Positions 790-13,660 of a DNA stretch of 64,000 nt are shown in pieces. Source of the DNA: Kribbella antibiotica (GTDB lineage Bacteria > Actinomycetota > Actinomycetes > Propionibacteriales > Kribbellaceae). The stretch's first letter is position 1. The number at the start of each line of letters is the position of its first letter. The notes under the pieces are model-generated. The model saw only the letters and a list, made by a program, of their open reading frames with translations. It was not told the DNA's origin and searched no databases. The DNA is taken from NCBI RefSeq assembly GCF_004349055.1, contig NZ_SMKX01000027.1:1-64000 (forward strand), read 5' to 3'. A program made the translations under genes and the position numbers.

Positions 790-1689
790 TTAGGCGTCGG
801 AGGGGGTGTTGAGGGTGGTTAGGGCGGTGGCTACTCGGCCGTTGGCTGTTTCCAGGGCGGCTCGGGCGGCGGGGATGGGGGCGCCGGTCAACAGGTGGAC
901 CAGGGCGGGTTTGAGTTCGCCGTCGGCGGCGGCCAGGGCTGATTCGCAGGCGTCGTGGTCGGCGCCGGTGGCTTCGGCGAGGATGCGGAGCATGCGGTTG
1001 CGGAGCTTGGCGTTGGTGGCGACGAGGTCGACCATGAGGTTCGACCAGGTGCGGCCGAGTTTGATCATCAGCGTGGTGGAGAAGGCGTTGAGGATCATCT
1101 TCTGGGCGGTGCCGGCCTTCAGGCGGGTGGAGCCGGCGATGACCTCGGGGCCGGTGTCCGCCGCGATGACGATGTCGGCCAGGGGTGCCAGTGGGGCCTC
1201 GGGGTTCGAGGTGATCAGGACTGTCGCGGCTCCGGCGGCACGCGCGGCCTTCAACGCACCGGCGACGTACGGCGTGCTTCCTGACGCGGCGAGGCCGATG
1301 GCGATGTCGCGGGCGGTGACGAGGGCGGCGTCGTCGGCGCCGCCCTGCTCGGAGTCCTCGACGTTCTCGACGGCGCGCAGGAGCGCTTCCATCCCGCCGG
1401 CATGATGCGCGACCACGAGACCGTCGGGAACGTGGAACGTCGGGAGCAGTTCGGCGGCATCGAGCACCGCGAGACGTCCCGACGTACCGGCGCCGAAGTA
1501 GTGCACGCGACCACCGCGCCGAACTGCCTCCACCGCTCTGTCGACCGCCTCGGCCAGCGGGGGCAGGACCAGCGCGACGGCGCCCGCCACAGAGGCGTCC
1601 TCGGCGTTCACCATCCGCAGGATCTCGGTCGTGCCCACCGCATCGATGGCGAGCGTGCGGGGGTTGCGCTGCTCCGTCGGTGTCGTCAC
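790..1689 (-). CDS. murQ: N-acetylmuramic acid 6-phosphate etherase MurQ
   Basis: This cytosolic enzyme removes D-lactate from MurNAc-6-phosphate to give GlcNAc-6-phosphate, the key step of MurNAc salvage. The 299-residue protein has the normal family length and a SIS sugar-phosphate fold. The glycine-rich phosphate loop GAGTSGR is at residues 66-72, followed by LAVLDAAEL with the expected catalytic Glu80. A second acidic cluster (ENVEDSE) lies near 108-114, and the signature TGPEVIAGSTRLKAGTAQK is near 179-197. It is the last gene of the salvage operon, 90 bp beyond the RpiR-type regulator, and that AT-richer gap carries a palindrome. Both the sequence and the neighbours fit, so the call is secure. 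Confidence 0.96.
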   Translation of the reverse strand: MTTPTEQRNPRTLAIDAVGTTEILRMVNAEDASVAGAVALVLPPLAEAVDRAVEAVRRGGRVHYFGAGTSGRLAVLDAAELLPTFHVPDGLVVAHHAGGMEALLRAVENVEDSEQGGADDAALVTARDIAIGLAASGSTPYVAGALKAARAAGAATVLITSNPEAPLAPLADIVIAADTGPEVIAGSTRLKAGTAQKMILNAFSTTLMIKLGRTWSNLMVDLVATNAKLRNRMLRILAEATGADHDACESALAAADGELKPALVHLLTGAPIPAARAALETANGRVATALTTLNTPSDA

Positions 1690-1711
1690 GGTATCGATGT
1701 TAGTTTTCTAC

Positions 1712-1724
1712 TGAAGGATTTTCA
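1712..1724. promoter_or_regulatory. Candidate RpiR/MurR operator upstream of murQ
   Basis: TGAAGGATTTTCA is an inverted repeat (TGAA-N5-TTCA) in the AT-rich 90-bp gap between the regulator gene and murQ. RpiR-family regulators often bind TGAA/TTCA-type palindromes near their sugar-phosphate genes. The assignment is inference from position and symmetry only. Confidence 0.35.
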
Positions 1725-1779
1725 ATTCTGTTCATCGTTGACTGCAACGATTGACGTAACGATCCGTACATGGTCGGTC

Positions 1780-2667
1780 TCACTCCGAACCCTTCAGCCG
1801 GTGCCCACGGACCGAACTCGCCGTCTCCTCGAGCGCCTTCACCGCATCCGGCAGCACCTGCTGGGCCACCCCGATGAACAGGCAGTCGATAACGGTGAGC
1901 TGCGCGATCCGCGACGACATCGCACCGGACCGGTACGTCGTCTCACGCGCGGCCGTGGTCAGCATCAGATCGGCGGTCCGGGCCAGCGGCGAGCGCGGGA
2001 AGTTGGTGACGGCGACCGTGGTGGCGCCGTGCTTGGCGGCCTCCTCGAGCGCCTCGACGACCTCGACGGTGACGCCGGTGTGCGAGATACCGATCGCGAC
2101 ATCGCCCTCACCGAGCAGCGCGGCCGACGGCAGCGCCATGTGGACGTCGGACCAGGCGAAGGCGACGCGGCGGATCCGGTGCAGCTTCTGCTGCAGGTCG
2201 AGGGCGACGAACGCGCTCGCGCCGAAGCCGTAGATATCGACGCGCGGCGCGTTCACGACCGCGGTCACCACCTTGGCCAAGGCGTGGATGTCGACCTGCT
2301 GCGCGGTCTCGCGAACAGCGCGCTCGTCGGCGAACGCGACCTTGCGGACCACGTCGTCGAGCGAGTCACCAGGCTCGATGTCGCCACCGACCTCGGGCCG
2401 GATGTTCTCCGTGGCCGACTGGGCCGCCAGCTGCAGGCGGAGCTGCGGGTAGCCGGGGACGCCGATCTGCTTGCAGAACCGGATGACCGTGGTCTCCGAG
2501 GTGGAGGCCACCTCGGCCAGTTCGGAGATCGTCATCGCAGCCACTCCGCCCGGGTCCGCGAGGACCGCGTTCGCCACCCGCTGCTCGGCCGGCGCCAGCG
2601 CGGGCATGACCGCGCGGACTCGGACCAGCAGCGGCCCCGTGGGTTCTGGAGAGGTTGTTGAACTCAT
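1780..2667 (-). CDS. RpiR/MurR-family transcriptional regulator
   Basis: The protein has an N-terminal RpiR-type helix-turn-helix (segments ISELAEVASTSETTVIRF and CKQIGVPGYPQLRLQL). A C-terminal SIS domain (YGFGASAFVALDLQQKL, then IGISHTGVTVEVVEAL) normally senses a phosphorylated sugar. Its place between the amidase gene and murQ argues that it responds to MurNAc-6-phosphate, as MurR does. I chose the ATG at 2667, giving 295 residues. An in-frame GTG at 2694 would add nine residues and lies closer to the stop of the upstream gene; neither start has a strong ribosome binding site. The repressor role and ligand are inferred from context. Confidence 0.88.
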   Translation of the reverse strand: MSSTTSPEPTGPLLVRVRAVMPALAPAEQRVANAVLADPGGVAAMTISELAEVASTSETTVIRFCKQIGVPGYPQLRLQLAAQSATENIRPEVGGDIEPGDSLDDVVRKVAFADERAVRETAQQVDIHALAKVVTAVVNAPRVDIYGFGASAFVALDLQQKLHRIRRVAFAWSDVHMALPSAALLGEGDVAIGISHTGVTVEVVEALEEAAKHGATTVAVTNFPRSPLARTADLMLTTAARETTYRSGAMSSRIAQLTVIDCLFIGVAQQVLPDAVKALEETASSVRGHRLKGSE

Positions 2668-2703
2668 GACAGCCACCGTACGGCGACTATGCACCAGATG
2701 GGA

Positions 2704-4428
2704 TCACCGACGCGAAAGTCTCCAACCTGTTGCCGTAAATGACTCAGGCGTTCGTTCACCGTCGAGAAGAACATCGCGCCCGCTCGTGATCTTCACACCG
2801 TCGACGTAGATTCCGCGGCCTTGGTACTGCGGATCGGTCGTGTACCGCCAGCGCAGCGACCGCTCACCACCGGCCAGCTCGGCCGTCACCTGATGCCAAT
2901 GCCGGTCACCGGACCCACTGATCGTCCCGTCGGTGTCGATCACCGAACCCCGATCCCGCACCGTGAACGGCACCTTGGCCCAGGTCTGCCCGTCCGTCGA
3001 CGTCTCCAGATACAGCAGATCCGAGTCCTCGGTGTCCACGAACAGATCGAACGCGAGCTTCGCCCCACCAGCCGGTACGGCGACCGCCGTGGCCAGTGTG
3101 GTCGTCGCGGCATCCGTCGTCCCGGAGAACCACGCGTCCTTGCCGTGCCGCGGGCCGACGCCGAGCGCCAGCGCGAGGCCTTGGGCGACGGCCCGCCGGG
3201 CGGGGTTGTTCGAACCCCAGCTGCGGCTCGGGTGCACCCGGTTGGTGAGCAGGATCGCGAACGAGCGCGAGTCGAAGTCGATCACGAGCGACGTACCGGT
3301 GTAGCCGGTGTGCCCGGCGGTGCGCGGCCCGGACAGACCACTCATGTACCAGCGCTGGTTCAGCTCGAACCCGAGTCCGTGGTCGTTCCCGGGGTAGGCC
3401 TGGTTGAAGTTGGTGACCATCGCGGTCACCGAGGCTTCCTTGAGAATCCGGGCACCGCGATAACTGCCGCCGTTCAGGAAGGTCTGCGCCAGCACAGCCA
3501 TGTCATCGGCCGTGCTGAAGACGCCCGCATGCCCGGCGACACCATCCAGGGACCAGGCGTTCTCGTCGTGCACCGAGCCCCAGACCATCCCGCGTGCCGG
3601 CGCCGTCTGGAACTCGGTCGCAGCGATCCGCAGCTTCTTCTTAGGATCCGGGTTGTAGCCGGTGTCGCGCATCTGCAGCGGCTTCGTGATGCCGTCGGCG
3701 ACCAGCCGGTCGAGCGTCTTGCCGGTCACCCGGTGCGCGACCTCGCCGAGCGAGATCAGATTCAGGTCGCTGTACAGGTACGTCGTACCGGCCGGGCTGG
3801 TCGGCTTGGCGGTCAGCGCCATCTGGAGTCGCGACGCCGCATCGGGCCGTGAGCTCCACAACGGCAACCAGGAGGGCAGGCCGGTGGTGTGCGTGAGCGC
3901 CTGCCGGATCGTGATCGCGGCCTTGCCGTTCTCGGCGAACTCCGGCACGTACTTCGCGATCGGCTCGTCGAGCCCGACCTTGCCCTTCTCGACCTGCTGC
4001 AGCACCACGATCGAGGTGAACAGCTTCGAGACCGAGGCCATGTCGAAGATGGTGTCGGTGCGCATCGGGATCTGCTGGTCGGCCGGCAGTTCCGTCCCGC
4101 TCCCATCGGCGTACTTGAGGGCGAGACCGGTCGCCTGCCGCGCGACCACGCGCCCGTCATGACCGAGCAGCGTCACCGCCCCGGCGTACAGAGGTTTCGC
4201 CGTACCGATCGGTTTCGTCCAGCCCTCGACCCGAGCCAGCGCAGCGTCGATCGGCGCCGGATCGAGCCCGGCGCGCTCGGGGGTGGAGTCCTTCAGCAAA
4301 GTCGTCTTCGGCGCGTAGCCCTCGTAGGGCTGGTCGAACCGGCCGGATTTGTTGCCATGGGCAACCGCAGGGGAAGTCATCGTCAGCATCACCGCAGAGG
4401 CTATCGTGAGGGCAACGGTCGTTTTCAC
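2704..4428 (-). CDS. Secreted serine hydrolase, AmiE-like N-acetylmuramyl-L-alanine amidase
   Basis: This beta-lactamase/PBP-fold enzyme is placed like B. subtilis AmiE (YbbE), which cuts the peptide from MurNAc. All three active-site motifs are present: SVSK at 132-135 (nucleophile Ser132, Lys135), YSD at 219-221 and HTG at 373-375. Residues 1-24 form a Sec-type signal peptide ending in AVAHG. Residues about 431-574 are an extra beta-rich, jelly-roll-like module (FDLFVDTEDSDLLYLETS, then GIYVDG) that may bind glycan or stabilise the enzyme. The GTG start at 4428 overlaps the namZ stop by four bases (GTGA) and has AAGGGAG just upstream. The open frame extends further 5', but that part is antisense-like and not protein-like. 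Amidase activity is inferred from synteny; a D,D-peptidase or esterase cannot be excluded. Confidence 0.85.
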   Translation of the reverse strand: MKTTVALTIASAVMLTMTSPAVAHGNKSGRFDQPYEGYAPKTTLLKDSTPERAGLDPAPIDAALARVEGWTKPIGTAKPLYAGAVTLLGHDGRVVARQATGLALKYADGSGTELPADQQIPMRTDTIFDMASVSKLFTSIVVLQQVEKGKVGLDEPIAKYVPEFAENGKAAITIRQALTHTTGLPSWLPLWSSRPDAASRLQMALTAKPTSPAGTTYLYSDLNLISLGEVAHRVTGKTLDRLVADGITKPLQMRDTGYNPDPKKKLRIAATEFQTAPARGMVWGSVHDENAWSLDGVAGHAGVFSTADDMAVLAQTFLNGGSYRGARILKEASVTAMVTNFNQAYPGNDHGLGFELNQRWYMSGLSGPRTAGHTGYTGTSLVIDFDSRSFAILLTNRVHPSRSWGSNNPARRAVAQGLALALGVGPRHGKDAWFSGTTDAATTTLATAVAVPAGGAKLAFDLFVDTEDSDLLYLETSTDGQTWAKVPFTVRDRGSVIDTDGTISGSGDRHWHQVTAELAGGERSLRWRYTTDPQYQGRGIYVDGVKITSGRDVLLDGERTPESFTATGWRLSRR

Positions 4429-5708
4429 CGATGCGCTCCCTTGTAGAGCAGGTATTTGGCCCGCCGCGCGGTCCACGCGTCGGTCTCGGCCTTCCAGGCT
4501 GCCACGATCTCCTCGGCAGTCGCATCCGCCAAAAGCATGGTCCGGAACCGGTCCGACCCGGTCAGCAGGTCGATCCAGCGGCCGGGCGGGTTCTCGGCCC
4601 GCCACGCGAAGCCCGGGTAGAGCTTCCGCGCCTCGACGATCATGTGGGTCGCCGCCACGATCGCCTCGGCCTTGCGCGGGTCGGTGATCTGCACCTGCAC
4701 CCCGCCGCAGAGCACGTTCGCGTTCTTGCTGATCGTCGGCGTGAAGTACGCCTCCCGGAACGCGACTCCTGGGATCTTCTTCGCCTGCAATGCCTGCGCC
4801 CACCGATAGTCGACGTACGGCGCTCCGACCAGCTCGAACGGCCGGGTCGTCCCACGCCCCTCCGACATGTTGGTCGCCTCGAACAGGCACATGCCGGGGT
4901 AGACCAGGGCAGTGTCGGGAGTCGGCATGTTCGGGCTTGGCATCACCCATGGGAGCCCGGTGTCGGCATACAGCTGGTCGCGCGTCCAGCCGCGCACCTG
5001 GATCACCTGGAGCTCCTTCAGCCGAGCACCTCCTGTGTCGAGTGGCAGGTACTCGGCGTTGAAGAGACGGGCCAGCTCGCCCACCGTCATGCCGTGCTGC
5101 TGGATGATCTCCCGCTTGCCGACGCCGGAGGTGTAGCCGGGTTTCAGCATCGGCCCCCGCGCAGATCCACCGGTCGGGTTCGGTCGGTCCAGCACGACGA
5201 AGCGCGCGCCCGTACGGACAGCGGCCAGCATCGCCTCGTACATGGTCCAGATGTAGGTGTAGAACCGCGCACCGACGTCCTGGATGTCGAAGACGACAGT
5301 CTCGACACCGGACTTCGTGTAGAGGTTCACCAGCTTGTCCGCGTTCGCGCCGTACGCGTCGTAGACCATGATTCCGGTCCGCGGGTCGACATGGTCACCC
5401 TCGGAACCACCTGCCTGCGCAGAGCCGCGGAAGCCGTGCTCGGGCCCGAAGACCGCCACCACGTTCACCTTGCCGGACGCATGCATCACGTCGACGACAT
5501 GGTTGAGGTCGGACAGGATGCCGGTCGGGTTACTGATCACTCCGACCTTCTGACCGGCCAGTGCCTTCCAGTTGTCCTTGGCCAGCACTTCGGCCCCAGT
5601 CATCAACTGCCGTCCAGAGCCGTGCGCTGAAGCAGTAGGTACGTCGAGCAGGGGCGCAGCGGCGATCACTCCGGCGCCCGCAAACAGAGTCCGTCGTTTC
5701 ATCGTCAC
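4425..5708 (-). CDS. namZ: Exo-beta-N-acetylmuramidase NamZ (DUF1343, GH171)
   Basis: This 427-residue DUF1343 protein matches the exo-acting muramidase NamZ, which releases terminal MurNAc from peptidoglycan glycans. The family segments are clear: VGVISNPTGI, VAVFGPEHGFRG, VVFDIQDVGARFYTYIWTMY, FVVLDRPNPTGG, LPWVMPSPNMPT and YPGMCLFEATNMSEGRGTT. The N-terminus MTMKRRTLFAGAGVIAAAPL, followed by a PTASA region, is a probable Tat signal peptide. The GTG start at 5708 shares a GTGA overlap with the nagZ stop, so the two are likely translated in a coupled way. A second ATG two codons later is an alternative start. NamZ makes MurNAc-ended fragments accessible in cooperation with NagZ and an amidase, which are encoded on either side. 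Confidence 0.94.
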   Translation of the reverse strand: MTMKRRTLFAGAGVIAAAPLLDVPTASAHGSGRQLMTGAEVLAKDNWKALAGQKVGVISNPTGILSDLNHVVDVMHASGKVNVVAVFGPEHGFRGSAQAGGSEGDHVDPRTGIMVYDAYGANADKLVNLYTKSGVETVVFDIQDVGARFYTYIWTMYEAMLAAVRTGARFVVLDRPNPTGGSARGPMLKPGYTSGVGKREIIQQHGMTVGELARLFNAEYLPLDTGGARLKELQVIQVRGWTRDQLYADTGLPWVMPSPNMPTPDTALVYPGMCLFEATNMSEGRGTTRPFELVGAPYVDYRWAQALQAKKIPGVAFREAYFTPTISKNANVLCGGVQVQITDPRKAEAIVAATHMIVEARKLYPGFAWRAENPPGRWIDLLTGSDRFRTMLLADATAEEIVAAWKAETDAWTARRAKYLLYKGAHR

Positions 5709-7507
5709 CAGCTCATTCCGTGGCCGAAGGAGTACAGGGGTTTCTGCGGCTCACCAGCCACCGGGATGTCGACGGGCAGCTTGCCGGTCGGCTTGATCTC
5801 GCCGTACAGGGCCTTGGCCAGCGACTCCATCGACACCGCCGCATAGCCATAGGTGGCCAGGAACGTCGGCGCGGCCGGGTAGTACGCGATGTCGTACGGA
5901 TCCTGGACCGCAACGACGATCACAGGTTTGCCGGTCGCGAGCAGGTCGTTGACGAGCTTGCGTTGTTTGCCGAGCTTGTCGGTGACCTTGGAGTCCCACG
6001 CCTTGCGCGTCAGCAGGACCGTGACGTCATTGTCGGCAGCCTTTGCCACCGAGCCGGCGATGGCCGCGTCACTCGGCGCCGCGCCGGTCTGGGCCACCGT
6101 GGTGACAGCACCACGCTTGGCCAGGCTGTTCGCCAGATTCTGCGTTGTCGAGACGCCCCAGCCGGTGACCAGAATCTTCCGCGGGGTGTTGCTCAGCGGC
6201 AGTGTCTTCGTATCGTCCTTGATCAGCGTGATGCTCTTGTCGACGATCTTCTGGGCCGTAGCCAGGCTGGCCGCCGGTCCGATCTCAGCCGCCTTCGCAG
6301 TATCCACGTAGGGCTCGAAAAACACGCCGTTCTTCAGCTTGAGCAGCAGAATCCGAAGCAGGCTCTCGTCGATGCGCCGCTCACTGATGCGTCCCGAGCG
6401 GACAGCATCCAGCACGGCATTGAACTGCACGGCAGGCGCGGGCGGCAGCAGCAACTGGTCGACCCCGGCCTCGATCGCGCGGACAGCAGCCTCGGCGTCG
6501 CCGTACTCCTGCCGGACAGCGGCCATCTCCAGCCCGTCCGTGACGATCACACCCCGGAACCCGAGCTGTTTCCGTAGCACCCCGGTCAGGATCGGCTTGC
6601 TCAACGTCGCCGGATCACCCGACGGATCCAACGCCGGTACGACGATGTGCGCGGTCATGATCGAGTCGATCCCGGCCTTGATCGCCGCCTTGAACGGCGG
6701 CGCGTCAATCGCGTTCCACTGCTCCAGGGTGTGGTTGATCGTCGGCAATGCGGTGTGGCTGTCGTCAACCGTGTCACCGTGGCCCGGGAAGTGCTTCGCA
6801 GTCGCAGTGATCCCGGCGTCGCGTTGGAAGCCCTGCACCTGCGCAGCCGTCATCTCCGAGACCAGCTTCGGATCGCTGGAGTACGAGCGGGTGCCGATGA
6901 CCGGGTTGAGCGCATTGATGTTCACATCGGCATCCGGCGCGTAGTCCTGCCGAATGCCCAGCGCCTTCAGCTCGCGACCGGTGATCGCGGCGGCGGTCCG
7001 AGCATCCGCCGTACTGCGGGCGGCGCCGAGCGCCATACTCCCGCCGAACTGCGTGGCCGGCGGCCCGATCCGGGTCACCACGCCTTGCTCCTGATCAGTG
7101 GCGATCAGCAGCGGCACGTGCAACCCGGTCCCGATCGCGGCCTGCTGGAGCTGGTTGGACAACGTCGCGACCTGGGTCGGGTTCTGCACATTGCCGCGGC
7201 CGTCGAAGTAGATCCAGCCGCCCGGCTTGTACTTCGCGACCACCTCGGCCGGCGAGGCAACGCCGTACAGGGTGGTGTTGCGGGCGTCGGGCTGATGCGC
7301 GTCCGGGCCGTAGGCGAACAGCACGAACAGCTGCCCGACCTTCTCCTCCAATGACATCCCCTGGATGGTCCGGTTGACCTGCGCGGCCGCGGAGAGCTCT
7401 GCCGGTTCTGGGGGTTTGGCGCTGGCCGTCATCGACACTCCCGCAACGGTGGTGGCCAGGGCGAGCCCGGCCAGACTGAGGCGGCGAACGGTGGGAAGGG
7501 CGGGCAT
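5705..7507 (-). CDS. nagZ: Glycoside hydrolase family 3 beta-N-acetylglucosaminidase (NagZ type)
   Basis: This 600-residue protein would remove terminal GlcNAc from muropeptides or peptidoglycan chains. The GH3 N-terminal barrel carries the NagZ signature KHFPGHGDTVDDSH at 238-251, whose Asp/His pair serves as general acid/base. The nucleophile Asp324 lies in VTDGLEMAA. A C-terminal GH3 alpha/beta domain (from about residue 420) follows, as in the longer Gram-positive NagZ/YbbD enzymes. The N-terminus (TVRRLSLAGLALATT, ending SMTASA) is a signal peptide with a twin-arginine look, so it acts outside the cytosol. It is the first gene of the salvage operon; the ATG has GGGGGT nearby. The 85-bp upstream gap is relatively AT-rich and should hold the operon promoter. 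Confidence 0.93.
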   Translation of the reverse strand: MPALPTVRRLSLAGLALATTVAGVSMTASAKPPEPAELSAAAQVNRTIQGMSLEEKVGQLFVLFAYGPDAHQPDARNTTLYGVASPAEVVAKYKPGGWIYFDGRGNVQNPTQVATLSNQLQQAAIGTGLHVPLLIATDQEQGVVTRIGPPATQFGGSMALGAARSTADARTAAAITGRELKALGIRQDYAPDADVNINALNPVIGTRSYSSDPKLVSEMTAAQVQGFQRDAGITATAKHFPGHGDTVDDSHTALPTINHTLEQWNAIDAPPFKAAIKAGIDSIMTAHIVVPALDPSGDPATLSKPILTGVLRKQLGFRGVIVTDGLEMAAVRQEYGDAEAAVRAIEAGVDQLLLPPAPAVQFNAVLDAVRSGRISERRIDESLLRILLLKLKNGVFFEPYVDTAKAAEIGPAASLATAQKIVDKSITLIKDDTKTLPLSNTPRKILVTGWGVSTTQNLANSLAKRGAVTTVAQTGAAPSDAAIAGSVAKAADNDVTVLLTRKAWDSKVTDKLGKQRKLVNDLLATGKPVIVVAVQDPYDIAYYPAAPTFLATYGYAAVSMESLAKALYGEIKPTGKLPVDIPVAGEPQKPLYSFGHGMSW

Positions 7508-7592
7508 GGCGGACCCCCAACTGTCAGTGAATTACAGACATGACCCCCGATGGCGAAAGTTAACCACAACACCACGGCGGGTCAAGGGGAAA

Positions 7593-8771
7593 CTACTCCC
7601 CGCCACCGACAGTAATTGGCGGCCTGATCACCAGCGTCGCGACAATCGCCACCATCAGCACCGTGGTGACGATGAACGGCACCGGAATAATCGGGTCGAA
7701 CAGCACCAGAACAGCGCCCACCGGTACGACGACGTTGACCACCCGATCGGCGTTCGCCCGCAGGGCGATCCACCAGATTCCCAGCACGAAGATCGCAATC
7801 GGCACGGTCATCGTGAACGATGCGACGAACTCACTGAGCTTGCTGTGATGGGTGATGACATCGATCTGCACCTCGACGCCGGCCGAGAACGCACCGGCCG
7901 CGGCGAACACGAAGTAGTGCACGTAGCCGTAGCGCAGCGAGCTGCCGAGCGAGGTGATCGCATTGTGGTGCGGCGGCCAGAAGTAGATCCACCACAGGGC
8001 CGCAGTGACGATCAGCGTGAGCGCAGAGATCCCGATGAGCGGAGCGAGCTCCTCGTGCTCGTGCACCGCTTCGATGATCGCATTGGCCGAGGCCAGCAGG
8101 CTCTCACCGAGCAGGATGAGCGTGAACAGGCCGTACCGCTCGGTGATGTGGTGCGGGTGCCGGGGTGTGGTCTGCTCGCCGCGGCGCTCGGCCACGACCG
8201 GCACGGACACCTCGGCGACGACCAGGACCAACCAGCCGATCAGAGTCACCTCGTGCGGCAGGAACATCAGCCCGATCCAGAGCACCTGGACGATGGCGAT
8301 CCCACCTGCGTAGGTCAGGGTGGTCCGGCGGGTCTCCGGCGCGGACCGGGATGCGCGCAGCCACTGCGCGATCATGGCCACTCGCATCACGACGTACCCG
8401 ACCACGACGACCCGGAAGTCCTCGTCGGCGAAGACGCGCTCGATGCCGGCCGCCAGCACCAGCACGCCGCCCATCTGGACGATCGTCAGCACCCGGTACA
8501 ACCAGTCGTCGGTCGCGAACGACGTGGCGAACCAGGTGAAGTTCATCCAGGCCCACCAGATCGCGAAGAACACGATCAGGAACGACATCACGCCGTGCGC
8601 GATGTGGTCCTCGGTGAGCGCGTGGTGCAGTTGGGCGGCCGCGACACTCACCGCGACCACGAACACCAGGTCGAAGAACAGCTCCAGCGTAGACGCCACC
8701 CGGCCGGGCTCATGCGGGTCCCGCGGGCGCATCGACGTCAACCGCAAGCGGGGATTGCTGCTCGTCGTCAT
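7593..8771 (-). CDS. LtrA-family (low temperature requirement) membrane protein
   Basis: This 392-residue polytopic protein has the LtrA-family hallmark near its N-terminus (ELFFDLVFVVAVS) and about ten hydrophobic segments with many Trp residues (FFAIWWAWMNFTWFATSF). The family was named from a Listeria cold-growth mutant and its biochemical role is not established. The ATG at 8771 forms an ATGA overlap with the stop of the dehydrogenase gene and has GGAG before it. I preferred this to an upstream in-frame start at 8801, which lies inside the previous gene. The stop codon sits inside a small GGGGA/TCCCC hairpin that could help end the transcript. Its coupling to sugar genes is noted, but the functional link is unknown. 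Confidence 0.87.
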   Translation of the reverse strand: MTTSSNPRLRLTSMRPRDPHEPGRVASTLELFFDLVFVVAVSVAAAQLHHALTEDHIAHGVMSFLIVFFAIWWAWMNFTWFATSFATDDWLYRVLTIVQMGGVLVLAAGIERVFADEDFRVVVVGYVVMRVAMIAQWLRASRSAPETRRTTLTYAGGIAIVQVLWIGLMFLPHEVTLIGWLVLVVAEVSVPVVAERRGEQTTPRHPHHITERYGLFTLILLGESLLASANAIIEAVHEHEELAPLIGISALTLIVTAALWWIYFWPPHHNAITSLGSSLRYGYVHYFVFAAAGAFSAGVEVQIDVITHHSKLSEFVASFTMTVPIAIFVLGIWWIALRANADRVVNVVVPVGAVLVLFDPIIPVPFIVTTVLMVAIVATLVIRPPITVGGGE

Positions 8772-9853
8772 AGCTCCAGAGTCTTCAGTACATCCGGCCA
8801 TGACTCCAAGCAGGCACGCACAGCCGGGTCCACGGCTGTCTCGATCGCCTCGGCATGCGCAACGGTCAGTACGTCGGCGATCCGCACTGGTGCACCCTTG
8901 GCGGCAGACTGTACGGCGGCCTCCACCATGGCCACGCTGATCACGTTGGAGTGCACCTCAGACTGCGGCACCGCGCCCGAGCGAACCGCTGCGACGAACT
9001 CCGCCAGCGAACCGGCGATCTCCTCCGGCTCGTCGGTCAGCTCCGCCACCACAGCCTCGCCCGACGCCAGCTCCACGGTCGGTGCGTTGTCGCCGTCCCA
9101 GTACGCCGTACCGCCGCCGGTACTGGCTCGCCAGCGACCGTTCCACGATGTCTCGAGACCCGGTGCACACCAGCTGCCATTGAAAACGAACCTGGTGCCG
9201 TTGGCGAAGGCGAACACGGCATTGGCGGCCGCATTGCCGTCGAACCAGCTCCACTGCGGGTTGTAGGACTCGCAGTAGACCGACACCGGTTCAGAACCGA
9301 TCAGTTTCCGGGCCAGATCGAACTGGTGGATCGCCATGTCGATCAGCAGCGGCTCGGCCATCCGCTCCCGGAAGCCACCGAAGTGCGGTCCCTTGAAGAA
9401 CTCGCACGACAGCGACCCGACCGCTCCCAGCTCGGCGATCTGACGGGCGAACGCGTTGCCGGCCCGGAAGTACCGCCGGGACTGCGAGACCATCAACAGC
9501 TTGCCGCTGAGCTCCGAGGCGGCCACCATCTGCAGCGATTGCCGGACGCTCTCCGCCAACGGCTTCTCCGACAGCACCGGCAGGCCATGACCCAGCGCAG
9601 TCGCACTCACGACGGGATGCGCGGCCGGAACCGTCACATCGACGACCGCATCGGCACCGCCCGCCAGCTCGTCGATCGACGCCGCTACGGGCACATCGCC
9701 GTACCCGTGCTCGTCAGCCGCCTCCCGCGCCAGCGCTACGTCGAGATCAACCAGCCCCACCAGTACGACGTCCGGGTTCTTCGCGATGTTGCCGAGCCAG
9801 GCGCGGCCCATGCCGCCCGCCCCGACCTGCAGCAGCCGCAGTGGTTCAGACAT
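8768..9853 (-). CDS. Gfo/Idh/MocA-family NAD(P)-dependent oxidoreductase
   Basis: The 361-residue protein has an N-terminal Rossmann fold (LLQVGAGGMGRAWLGNI) and the family motif VLSEKPLAES, with the Lys that usually contacts cofactor and substrate. A C-terminal alpha/beta domain follows, with the conserved DMAIHQFDLARKLIG helix carrying the catalytic-type His. Such enzymes oxidise or epimerise sugars and inositols. Here it lies just downstream of thuA and a sugar importer and probably acts on the imported sugar. The ATG at 9853 overlaps the thuA stop by eight bases. A start at 9907 would lie deeper inside thuA and is less likely. The exact substrate cannot be read from sequence. Confidence 0.92.
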   Translation of the reverse strand: MSEPLRLLQVGAGGMGRAWLGNIAKNPDVVLVGLVDLDVALAREAADEHGYGDVPVAASIDELAGGADAVVDVTVPAAHPVVSATALGHGLPVLSEKPLAESVRQSLQMVAASELSGKLLMVSQSRRYFRAGNAFARQIAELGAVGSLSCEFFKGPHFGGFRERMAEPLLIDMAIHQFDLARKLIGSEPVSVYCESYNPQWSWFDGNAAANAVFAFANGTRFVFNGSWCAPGLETSWNGRWRASTGGGTAYWDGDNAPTVELASGEAVVAELTDEPEEIAGSLAEFVAAVRSGAVPQSEVHSNVISVAMVEAAVQSAAKGAPVRIADVLTVAHAEAIETAVDPAVRACLESWPDVLKTLEL

Positions 9854-10622
9854 CGGCCGCCTCCTCGATCGGACCGCCGTACCCGTGACCGTTGAAGAAG
9901 TCACCACTCTCGTACCGCAGCAACGTCGGTACGGCGCGTTCCGGGCGGTCCGACTTCGCCCAGGCGACGCCGTTCGCGATCACCTTGCGGATGTCCTTGT
10001 GGTGGTAGACAGGGAAGTCCTGGTCGCCCGGTGAGAAGTAGAAGATCTTCCCGTGCCCCCGGCGGAACGTGCAGCCGGACCGGAAGGCCTCACCGCCGCT
10101 GAACGTCGAGATGAAGATCAGCTCGTCCGGAACCGGGATGTCGAAGAACTCGCCGTACATCTCCTGCTGCTCGATCTCGATCGGGTGCGGCACCCCCTGC
10201 GCGATCGGATGCGTCGGGTTCACCGTCCACACCAGTTCACGGTCGCGCTCACTGCGCCAGCGCAGCGTGCACGACGTACCCATCAGCTTGCCGAAGATCT
10301 TCGACCAGTGGCCGGAGTGCAGAACGACCAGCCCCATCCCGGCAAGCACGTGCTGGTAGACGCGCTCGACCACCTTGTCCTCGACCTCACCGTGCGCCGC
10401 GTGCCCCCACCAGACGAGGACGTCGGTGTCGGCCAGCACCTCCTCGGTCAGTCCGTGCTCGGGCTCGTCGAGGGTCGTCGTACCGACTGTTGCCTGCTCC
10501 CCGAGGTTCTCCGAGATGCCGGCCGCGATCGTGGCGTGCATGCCGTCGGGATAGAGCTCGGCGACGTGCGGCTCGGTCTGCTCGTGCCGGTTCTCGCCCC
10601 AGACGAGTACGCGAATCGTCAT
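9846..10622 (-). CDS. ThuA-domain protein
   Basis: This 258-residue protein belongs to the ThuA family, a class I glutamine-amidotransferase-like fold first linked to trehalose utilisation. Typical segments are VLVWGENRHEQ at the start, TDVLVWWGHAAHGEV, LVVLHSGHWSKIFGKLMGT and KIFYFSPGDQDFPVYHH. ThuA proteins commonly accompany Gfo/Idh/MocA dehydrogenases and MalFG-type importers, as here, and one proposed role is keto-sugar handling. It follows the importer permease by 22 bp and overlaps the dehydrogenase start. A specific sugar is not implied by sequence alone. Confidence 0.92.
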   Translation of the reverse strand: MTIRVLVWGENRHEQTEPHVAELYPDGMHATIAAGISENLGEQATVGTTTLDEPEHGLTEEVLADTDVLVWWGHAAHGEVEDKVVERVYQHVLAGMGLVVLHSGHWSKIFGKLMGTSCTLRWRSERDRELVWTVNPTHPIAQGVPHPIEIEQQEMYGEFFDIPVPDELIFISTFSGGEAFRSGCTFRRGHGKIFYFSPGDQDFPVYHHKDIRKVIANGVAWAKSDRPERAVPTLLRYESGDFFNGHGYGGPIEEAADV

Positions 10623-10644
10623 CTGTATGTCCTTGTCAGGCAGG

Positions 10645-11466
10645 TTATTTGACCGCTCCGCCGACGGCGCCGGCGGCGATGTACTTCTGGGCGGCGACCA
10701 GCAGCACGACGGCCGGGATCGCCGACAGGACCGCGGTGGCCATCACCGCGTTCCAGTTCTGCACCTGGGTCCCCAGGTACTGGTAGATGCCGAGCGTGAC
10801 CGGCCGGACGCCGCCCTTGGTGGTCAGCGTCAGCGCGAACAGGAAGTCGCTCCAGGAGAACAGGAAACTGAACAGTCCCGCGGTGATCAGCGAGTTCCGG
10901 CTGATCGGCAACACGATCGCGACGAACGCCCGGAGCAGACCGGCGCCGTCGACCCGCGCGGCCTCCACCAGCGACGGCGGCAGCGAGAGCATGAACGAGC
11001 GCAGGATCAGGATCGCGAACGGCAGCGCGCTGCTGCAGTTCGCCACGATCAGCCCGGGGATCGAGTTCAGCAGGCCGATCCGTTCGTACGCCGTGTAGAG
11101 CGCGTTGGCGATCACGATCCCCGGGATCATCTGCGAGATCAGGATCGCCAGCAGACCGATCGACACCCAGCGCGACCGGAACTGCGACAACGCGTACGCA
11201 CAGGGCGCCGCGATCGCCAGGCTCAGCACGACCGTCCCGGTCGCGATGATCAAGCTGGTGACCAGGTTGCCGCCCTGCTCGCTGAGCGCTCGCCGGTAGC
11301 CGGCGAAGCTCGGATCGAGCGGCAGGAACCCGGCCGTCAAGGTGTTGCCGGACGGCTGCAGCGACGCGTTCAGCATCCAGTAGACCGGGAACAGCATCAC
11401 GCCAACGATCAGCAGGCCGATCACCGTGTACGCCGCTCGCCGGGTGGCCGAATCTGTCATCGTCAC
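10645..11466 (-). CDS. Carbohydrate ABC transporter permease (MalG type)
   Basis: This 273-residue inner-membrane permease has six predicted helices and the CUT1 cytoplasmic EAA loop (EAARVDGAGLLRAFVAIVLP), which docks the ATPase. The N-terminal YTVIGLLIVGVMLFPVYWML segment and the C-terminal QKYIAAGAVGGAVK ending are typical of MalG-like subunits. It lies six bases downstream of the MalF-like gene and 22 bp upstream of thuA. No ATP-binding subunit is encoded nearby, so a shared MsiK-type ATPase elsewhere in the genome is expected, as in other actinobacteria. Confidence 0.95.
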   Translation of the reverse strand: MTMTDSATRRAAYTVIGLLIVGVMLFPVYWMLNASLQPSGNTLTAGFLPLDPSFAGYRRALSEQGGNLVTSLIIATGTVVLSLAIAAPCAYALSQFRSRWVSIGLLAILISQMIPGIVIANALYTAYERIGLLNSIPGLIVANCSSALPFAILILRSFMLSLPPSLVEAARVDGAGLLRAFVAIVLPISRNSLITAGLFSFLFSWSDFLFALTLTTKGGVRPVTLGIYQYLGTQVQNWNAVMATAVLSAIPAVVLLVAAQKYIAAGAVGGAVK

Positions 11467-11472
11467 GCCTCC

Positions 11473-12405
11473 TTACTCGTCGACGGCACGACGGGTGCTG
11501 CGCAGGTAGAAGATCGCGAACAGGAACGACAGCCCGATCAGCAGGTTGCTCAACGCCGCTCCCTCACCGAACTTGAAGTCCACGAAGGAACGCTCGTACG
11601 ACTGCGTTGCCAGGGTCTGGGTCGCGTTGGCCGGGCCACCGCCGGTCAGACCGAGGATGATGTCCAGCACCTTGATCGTGTAAACGACACCCAGCATCAG
11701 CAGTACGCCGGCCACCGCCCGCAGGTTCGGCCAGGTGATGTGCACGAACGCGCGCCGGCCGGTCGCACCGTCCAGCTGCCCGGCTTCGTAGAGCTCGTCC
11801 GGGATCTCGGACAGACCGGAGTACAGCAGAGTGACGTTGAACGGGATCCCGATCCAGATGTTCACGCCGATCACCGCGATCAGCGCCACCGACGGCGAGT
11901 TCAGCCACGGCACCGGCTGGTCGATCAGGTGCAGGCCGGTCAGGGTCCGATTGAGAATGCCGTTGTCCTGCTCAAGAATTGAGCGCCAGGTCGCGCTCGA
12001 CACGATCAGCGGCAGCAGCCAGGGCAGCAACAGCAACGACCGCAGCAGACCACCGAGTGGAAAATTCCTTCGGAAGAACAACGCGAGCGCCAGGCCGATG
12101 CTGAACTGGAAGGCGATCGAGCCGATGGTGAACAACGCGGTGTTCACCATCGCCTGCGAGAACAGCTGATCGCTCACCATCGCCGCGTAGTTCTTCAGTC
12201 CGACGAACGGCGCCTGGCCGGTGAAGAACGTGCGCAGGCTGTAGTCCTGCAGACTCATCACCACGTTCTTCACGACCGGGTACCCGAACAACGCGGCCAT
12301 CGCGAGCGCGGCCGGCAGCACGAACAGAACCTTGGTCAGGCTCTCTCCCCGCCGGCCCCGCTGCCGCCGTACGGCGACTGAGCGCGTCAGTGTCGCCTGC
12401 GCCAT
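11473..12405 (-). CDS. Carbohydrate ABC transporter permease (MalF type)
   Basis: This 310-residue permease has six to seven hydrophobic segments and the CUT1 EAA loop (YEAGQLDGATGRRAFVHITW). It would pair with the MalG-like subunit to form the channel. The ATG at 12405 sits one base after the stop of the binding-protein gene; an upstream in-frame ATG at 12435 lies within that gene and is less likely. The N-terminal SVAVRRQRGRRGESLTKVLF stretch is a basic cytoplasmic tail typical of actinobacterial members. Confidence 0.94.
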   Translation of the reverse strand: MAQATLTRSVAVRRQRGRRGESLTKVLFVLPAALAMAALFGYPVVKNVVMSLQDYSLRTFFTGQAPFVGLKNYAAMVSDQLFSQAMVNTALFTIGSIAFQFSIGLALALFFRRNFPLGGLLRSLLLLPWLLPLIVSSATWRSILEQDNGILNRTLTGLHLIDQPVPWLNSPSVALIAVIGVNIWIGIPFNVTLLYSGLSEIPDELYEAGQLDGATGRRAFVHITWPNLRAVAGVLLMLGVVYTIKVLDIILGLTGGGPANATQTLATQSYERSFVDFKFGEGAALSNLLIGLSFLFAIFYLRSTRRAVDE

Positions 12406-12406
12406 C

Positions 12407-13660
12407 TCAGCCGCCCGAGGCCTGCTTGAAGGCATCTTGCGCCGAAGCCTTACCGGTCAGGGCCAGCTGGATCGCCTGGTAGATCACCTTGGCGGCATCG
12501 GGCCACTTGTCGCCGAGCTTGCCGGTCCGCGACCGTGCCGTCTTGACCTGCTCGGCGAACGCCTTCATCGACGGCACATCCTTGGCGTACTGGTCGAGCA
12601 GCGCGGTCTTGGTCGGAAGGGTGAAGCGGGCCTTCGCCCAGGCCAGCTCGTTCTCGTCGGAGTTCAGGCACTTCACGAAATCAGCAGCCTTCTGCTGCTT
12701 GGCCTGGTCCTTGTTCAGCGGGACCGTCCACGCCTCACCGCCGAGCGGCGCGACCGGTGTCTGATCCGGCTTGTTCAGCGGGAAGGTGACGACATCCCAC
12801 TTCACCTTCGGGTTCTCCTGCAGCGCCGGGATCTGCCAGGGACCGTTCACCATCATCGCGGCCTTGCCGGCCACGAACTGGTCCTTGGCGTCGCCCTGGG
12901 TCCAGTTGATCACGCTCTTCGACGCCGAGCCGGACTGGACGAGATCAACCCACAGTTGCAGGGCTTCGGCCACCTGCGGGCTCTTCAGGTCGGTCTCGTC
13001 GCCGCCATTGGTCCACATGGCCGGCAGGAACTGCCACGAACCTTCGTACGTCGCGTTGGCGTTGAACGCGATGCCGTAGCGGCCGGGCTTGGTCAGCTTC
13101 TTGGCAGCGGCCTTCAGCTCGTCCCAGGTCTTCGGCGGCTGCACGCCGGCTTCGGCCAGCATGTCCTTGTTGTAGAACAGCGCGAGCGTGTTCGTCACCG
13201 GCGCCAGTCCGTAGAGCTTGCCTTGGTACGACGTCGCGTCGACCATGCCCTGAATGACTCCGTCCGCGTTCAGACCCAGGTCGTTCAACGGCGCGAGGGC
13301 GCCGGTGGCGGCGATCTGCTGGACGTCGGGATTGTCGAGCATCAGCACATCGGGCAGGGTCTTGGACGACGCCTGCTGCAGCACCTTCTGGATCAAGGTG
13401 TCACCAGGCACCGTCTCCCGCTGGATGCTGATGCCGAGCTTGGTTCCGCAGGCGTCCAGGCCCTTCTGGACCAGCGCCTTGTCGGGGTCGTTGTTGTAGT
13501 AGTCGAGGACGGTCAGGCTGGTGACCGCTCCACCGGACGACGTGCCGCCGCCGTCTCCGTTTCCGCTGTTGCCGTTTCCGTTGGCACCGCAGGCCGCCAG
13601 GGCGAGCGCCAGGGCCAACGCACTCGCCGTGGCGGCGATGGGCCGCTTGCTCCTCATCAC
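12407..13660 (-). CDS. ABC transporter sugar-binding lipoprotein
   Basis: This 417-residue extracellular solute-binding protein (SBP family 1, MalE-like) carries a lipoprotein signal with lipobox LAAC and lipidation Cys24, followed by a Gly/Asn/Ser linker. Family segments include the aromatic and acidic ligand-pocket region GSWQFLPAMWTNGGDE and AAMMVNGPWQIP. As the first gene of the importer operon it is driven by a clear promoter and a LacI-type operator just upstream. The ligand is not evident; the operon's ThuA and Gfo/Idh/MocA genes suggest a disaccharide or sugar derivative. ATG codons at 13660 and 13657 are both possible starts. Confidence 0.95.
   Translation of the reverse strand: MMRSKRPIAATASALALALALAACGANGNGNSGNGDGGGTSSGGAVTSLTVLDYYNNDPDKALVQKGLDACGTKLGISIQRETVPGDTLIQKVLQQASSKTLPDVLMLDNPDVQQIAATGALAPLNDLGLNADGVIQGMVDATSYQGKLYGLAPVTNTLALFYNKDMLAEAGVQPPKTWDELKAAAKKLTKPGRYGIAFNANATYEGSWQFLPAMWTNGGDETDLKSPQVAEALQLWVDLVQSGSASKSVINWTQGDAKDQFVAGKAAMMVNGPWQIPALQENPKVKWDVVTFPLNKPDQTPVAPLGGEAWTVPLNKDQAKQQKAADFVKCLNSDENELAWAKARFTLPTKTALLDQYAKDVPSMKAFAEQVKTARSRTGKLGDKWPDAAKVIYQAIQLALTGKASAQDAFKQASGG

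Follow-up and report, generated by a model that had tools for sequence, protein, structure and literature searches.

The minus strand between positions 790 and 7507 of the Kribbella antibiotica DNA analysed here (a stretch of 64 kb, referred to as the window) very likely carries a muropeptide-salvage locus that is probably controlled by MurR and that would work without a PTS permease. Read in the direction of transcription, the gene order is nagZ, namZ, an amiE-like gene, murR and murQ. The genes and the predicted control elements are as follows:

5705..7507, minus strand: nagZ, predicted secreted GH3 exo-beta-N-acetylglucosaminidase, 600 aa
4425..5708, minus strand: namZ, predicted exo-beta-N-acetylmuramidase with a Tat-like RRTLF signal
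2704..4428, minus strand: S12 serine hydrolase at the AmiE position, with a predicted signal peptide and a C-terminal InhA-like MAM domain
1780..2667, minus strand: murR, RpiR-family regulator (HTH_6 and SIS); alternative start at 2694
790..1689, minus strand: murQ, predicted MurNAc-6-phosphate etherase
7557..7585, minus strand: predicted nagZ promoter, TTGACC-N17-TAACTT; same arrangement in other Kribbella
7523..7536, minus strand: predicted MurR operator 3' of the nagZ promoter; degenerate TGTAATTCACTGAC here, TGTAATTCAATTAC in most Kribbella
1695..1742, minus strand: conserved block 5' of murQ, including the predicted promoter TTGAAA-N17-TAACAT (1725-1697)

The initial annotation had described five minus-strand genes, the first three joined by GTGA overlaps, as a complete muropeptide-salvage operon matching that of Bacillus subtilis. 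Coordinates and family matches agree on the five genes and on the overlaps, GTGA being common to nagZ and namZ (5708-5705) and to namZ and the amiE-like gene (4428-4425), and gene families and kept gene order give good support to a role in muropeptide or MurNAc salvage. The GTGA at the 3' end of namZ is kept in loci L002, L003, L009, L013, L014 and L018. An alternative start for namZ is the ATG six bases further in (GTGACCATG), and a gap of 90 bases separates murR from murQ. The contig begins with a Nextera transposon-end remnant (GTGTATAAGAGACAG, positions 1-15), so the assembly breaks off 3' of murQ. The B. subtilis cluster, murQ-murR-murP-amiE-nagZ-ybbC(namZ), comprises six genes (PMC5061867). 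The sixth, murP, is missing from the Kribbella locus at 790-7507, no PTS EIIC was detected in the genome and the gene order is reversed; neither the word complete nor the match to the B. subtilis set can be retained.

We found that three of the encoded enzymes are readily placed in their families. NagZ has the Pfam GH3 N and C domains, matches B. subtilis YbbD/NagZ (3bmx) over its full length in the PDB (297 bits) and carries the Asp-His dyad motif KHFPGHGD..DDSH at 238-251, with VTDG at 322; these features are those of the two-domain Gram-positive type, and the score against the single-domain model NF003740 is 173 bits, below the cut-off of 207. NamZ, present as a single copy in the K. antibiotica genome, combines NamZ_N and NamZ_C in one protein far over the cut-off (PF07075, 250 bits; PF20732, 178 bits), matches PDB 4k05 at 235 bits and has a GPEHG motif at 88. 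Its closest counterpart in the named genome set is that of K. albertanoniae, at 95% identity, followed by those of other Kribbella. MurQ is the sole protein in the genome to exceed the curated equivalog cut-off of TIGR00274 (310 vs 302 bits); it aligns over its whole length with MurNAc-6P etherases of known structure (PDB 4s12, 267 bits) and keeps both candidate catalytic Glu motifs (DAAEL at 77 and ENVED at 108).

The remaining two names are less secure. The protein at the AmiE position, which had been called an AmiE-like amidase, is indeed an S12 hydrolase, with the S12/beta-lactamase fold of PF00144 (239 bits), an InhA-like MAM domain (PF20773, 48.5 bits) and the motifs SVSK, YSD and HTG, so that an SxxK protein does lie within the mur cluster. 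Its score against the PBP4B model is 185 bits, under the cut-off of 385. Because its best PDB matches are esterases (about 1e-18), the amidase name is owed to position, not to sequence. The murR product has the RpiR architecture of HTH_6 and SIS domains and reaches no equivalog cut-off, scoring 138 bits against the 408 of the curated MurR equivalog NF012026; its identity as MurR therefore rests on context. This shortfall weakens the name MurR, not the role of local regulator. By eye, NagZ, NamZ and the S12 hydrolase have signal-like N-termini, Tat-like in NamZ, given which the three hydrolases would sit outside the cell.

The order nagZ-namZ-amiE-murR-murQ is kept in almost every Kribbella locus and in numerous Intrasporangiaceae, and the same five genes recur in this order in Knoellia, Terrabacter, Phycicoccus, Janibacter and others, although the compared loci were collected with a NamZ query and are biased toward NamZ-bearing clusters. 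This recurrence indicates that the cluster is not a product of chance. MurQ itself is present in all 38 Kribbella genomes and in 55 of the 158 genomes sampled across the class.

We propose that secreted NagZ and NamZ would take GlcNAc and MurNAc off wall fragments one by one, with trimming of the peptide stem probably left to the secreted S12 hydrolase. Such enzymes could instead be secreted for predation or scavenging on foreign walls rather than for recycling of the cell's own wall, an explanation suggested by the soil habitat, by the secretion of the enzymes and by the secreted EEP-type phosphohydrolase that joins the set in relatives. In B. subtilis, however, this gene set works in the turnover of the cell's own wall (PMC5061867), and we consider the foreign-wall explanation rather improbable, if compatible with salvage. 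The present data do not separate own-wall from foreign-wall fragments, and both sources may hold. With regard to the EEP-type proteins, a second GH3 fused to an EEP domain (PF03372) directly precedes namZ in many Kribbella (L003:7417-9975, L009:7410-9977, L016:1982-4540 and others) and is absent from the 64-kb window. In Terrabacter/Terracoccus (L026, L023) and in Actinoallomurus/Actinomadura (L064, L053) the same place is taken by free secreted EEP proteins whose motifs are intact. The putative function of the EEP protein may be to cleave phosphodiester-linked wall polymers from MurNAc.

MurP is a PTS permease that both imports and phosphorylates MurNAc. In the K. antibiotica genome, which scored 100% complete, we found no PTS_EIIC domain at an E-value of 0.001, and the same search recovers this family from both B. 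subtilis and E. coli. With neither murP nor a PTS EIIC detected, MurQ needs MurNAc-6P from a kinase. Save for the chance that MurP falls in a gap of the assembly, the lack of an EIIC match contradicts the notion that the complete B. subtilis pathway is at work, with MurP-type PTS import and phosphorylation of MurNAc and with one operon giving one transcript. The locus does have five of the six B. subtilis genes and an EI-like domain (PF05524) is encoded on contig C295, but murQ also has its own conserved promoter-like block, and we regard a complete B. subtilis pathway as highly improbable. The EI-like domain does qualify the PTS-free view of the locus, as some PTS phosphotransfer parts remain.

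Candidates for the kinase are encoded elsewhere in the genome; near the operon, no kinase was seen within the 64-kb window. The genome has one copy of AnmK, which lies over an equivalog cut-off; the protein is also similar to levoglucosan kinase, and we set aside that likeness in view of its score over the AnmK cut-off. Four BadF-family kinases, encoded on contigs C55, C105, C286 and C327, exceed the Pfam cut-off, and for the C55 protein the best match by sequence is the solved MurNAc/GlcNAc kinase 8zo3. The group on contig C105 (L100, G000:C105) consists of an NgcE-type SBP/ABC importer (609 bits) beside a NagK-like kinase and an SIS protein of the PRK02947 subfamily; the kinase, a divergent NagK-like protein, is present in 38/38 Kribbella. 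This group likely serves GlcNAc/chitobiose use without a PTS, and NagA is also encoded in the genome. The kinases of C105 and L024 show weak matches to both MurNAc and GlcNAc kinases, and sequence similarity does not separate the two kinds. Within the window, Gfo/Idh/MocA, ThuA and ABC sugar importer genes lie at 8768-13660, upstream of LtrA. The ABC cluster (10645-13660), accompanied by ThuA and Gfo/Idh genes, looks like a separate sugar system.

Since the Kribbella operon has neither a transporter nor a kinase linked to it, these two steps are assigned by analogy with relatives. In many Intrasporangiaceae an SBP, permeases and a BadF kinase directly follow murQ. A kinase stands directly after murQ in L048, L049, L159, L168 and L172, anmK does so in L080, L139 and L148, and a C105-type group adjoins murQ in L038, L046 and L054. 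Among 40 murQ loci sampled class-wide, a BadF kinase lies within 9 kb in nine and anmK in seven, counts that are approximate in that they come from a simple ORF method with labels from single-sequence searches; one of the class-wide loci, L155, looks like Janibacter L033 repeated. By this analogy, the strongest candidates for uptake and phosphorylation are the BadF/ABC and anmK genes found beside murQ. Whether, across Actinomycetia, the MurP step has been replaced by a murQ-adjacent ABC importer and a BadF-type MurNAc kinase, with AnmK as the alternative and with the Kribbella parts encoded away from the operon, appears to us evenly balanced. If true, this would identify the transporter and the kinase that handle MurNAc in actinobacteria without MurP, and the neighbourhoods murQ - ABC importer - BadF kinase and murQ - anmK offer specific genes for testing.

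The anmK neighbourhoods also bear on a narrower explanation, in which the locus would serve mainly anhydroMurNAc recycling: products of lytic transglycosylases would be trimmed outside the cell, the anhydro-sugar imported and converted by AnmK to MurNAc-6P, and free MurNAc left unused. We identified no dedicated muramyl kinase with confidence other than AnmK, which is found in 38/38 Kribbella and whose gene adjoins murQ in the three loci named above. The sugar that NamZ-family enzymes release from the non-reducing ends of chains is, however, MurNAc and not anhydroMurNAc, and in many relatives murQ is paired with BadF/MurK-like kinases instead, so that recycling mainly of anhydroMurNAc seems possible but doubtful. 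In the broader salvage pathway that we favour, GlcNAc or chitobiose would enter through the NgcE-type ABC importer and MurNAc or anhydroMurNAc through some other system; against MurNAc import by the C105 importer, the latter looks like a GlcNAc/chitobiose system. A cytosolic kinase, either AnmK acting on anhydroMurNAc or a BadF/NagK/MurK-type enzyme acting on MurNAc, would make MurNAc-6P, which MurQ would convert to GlcNAc-6P and D-lactate, and NagA would pass the GlcNAc-6P onward.

Upstream of nagZ, the predicted promoter TTGACC-N17-TAACTT (7585-7557) is followed by the palindrome TGTAATTCACTGAC (7536-7523). The pattern TGTAATTCAATTAC, with at most one mismatch, occurs at one place per genome in 36 of the 38 Kribbella, in every case on the contig that carries murQ and 5.8-10.0 kb upstream of that gene, and the reversed pattern, used as a control, gave one match across all 38 genomes. 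The K. antibiotica palindrome has two mismatches and hence falls outside these matches. We did not find the palindrome at the C55, C105, C113, C286 and C327 kinase loci; outside Kribbella it gave two weak matches only, and in Intrasporangiaceae none save one weak match. It is similar to the site TGTAATTAAATTACA of HexR, a regulator of the same family, and binding of HexR on the downstream side of a promoter is believed to be repressive (PMC11906056). The RpiR regulator would thus likely repress the nagZ promoter from the downstream palindrome, although the degeneracy of the site in K. antibiotica itself and its scarcity in Intrasporangiaceae argue against an operator. With one predicted operator place per genome, the locus offers a simple one-site regulator for study.

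A second element lies 5' of murQ, where a block of ~48 bases is conserved in 19 Kribbella. In its main part about 74% of columns are at least 90% conserved; the corresponding figures in the same 19 Kribbella are 25% for third codon positions within murQ and 0-2% for columns further upstream. TTGAAA-N17-TAACAT ends seven bases before the murQ GTG, which suggests a leaderless transcript; from its own predicted promoter, the murQ mRNA is probably leaderless. Most Intrasporangiaceae examined have a like arrangement of TTGACG or similar, N17, TAACCT or similar and then the start codon. murQ would therefore, in our model, be driven additionally by its own promoter. While the gene cluster proposed in the initial annotation stands, its reading as one operon is doubtful because murQ has this strongly conserved promoter-like block; the five genes are probably not one transcription unit, murQ and nagZ each having a predicted promoter.

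Compared with known systems, the locus shares with the B. subtilis cluster the grouping of MurQ, an RpiR regulator, an S12 hydrolase, a two-domain GH3 NagZ and NamZ, and a predicted extracellular degradation of muropeptides. It differs in lacking murP or a detected PTS EIIC, in its reversed order, in the extra MAM domain of the AmiE-position protein and in the separate conserved murQ promoter that we predict. Streptomyces coelicolor is likewise an actinobacterium without MurP in which MurR adjoins MurQ (SCO4308-SCO4307), and MurNAc recycling has been proven there (PMC5061867); unlike that of Kribbella, its published cluster lacks nagZ, namZ and amiE and has as neighbours SCO4305 and SCO4306, of unknown function. 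In published work, murQ mutants of S. coelicolor, B. subtilis and S. aureus accumulate MurNAc-6P (PMC5061867). In Tannerella forsythia and Clostridium acetobutylicum MurNAc is phosphorylated by the cytosolic kinase MurK, not by a PTS (PMC10465942), whereas the Kribbella candidate kinase is unlinked to the locus and T. forsythia is a MurNAc auxotroph. The E. coli murQ-murP-pbp4B cluster with divergent murR also groups MurQ, MurR and an S12/PBP4B-like protein, but E. coli has MurP and its cluster lacks NamZ and NagZ. According to a 2026 preprint on mycobacteria, no tested Mycobacteriales encode MurP and the MurNAc transporter is unknown (PMC13041923). The value of the present comparison lies in the candidate genes that it points to for the uptake and phosphorylation of MurNAc in such MurP-less actinobacteria. 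In the open-licence literature searched we found no description of the MurP-less five-gene set, of its conserved control sites or of the actinobacterial ABC/BadF and AnmK neighbours of murQ, and earlier reports may exist.

Two minor observations concern individual records. Locus L018, from a record named Streptomyces sp. SID13031, has the Kribbella form of the operon with a NamZ that is 86% identical, and the record probably comes from a Kribbella and is mislabelled. At G036:C116:1611-2495 and at G051:C1:1252663-1253547 there is a second murQ copy that contains an in-frame TAG, perhaps a decayed paralogue in each case.
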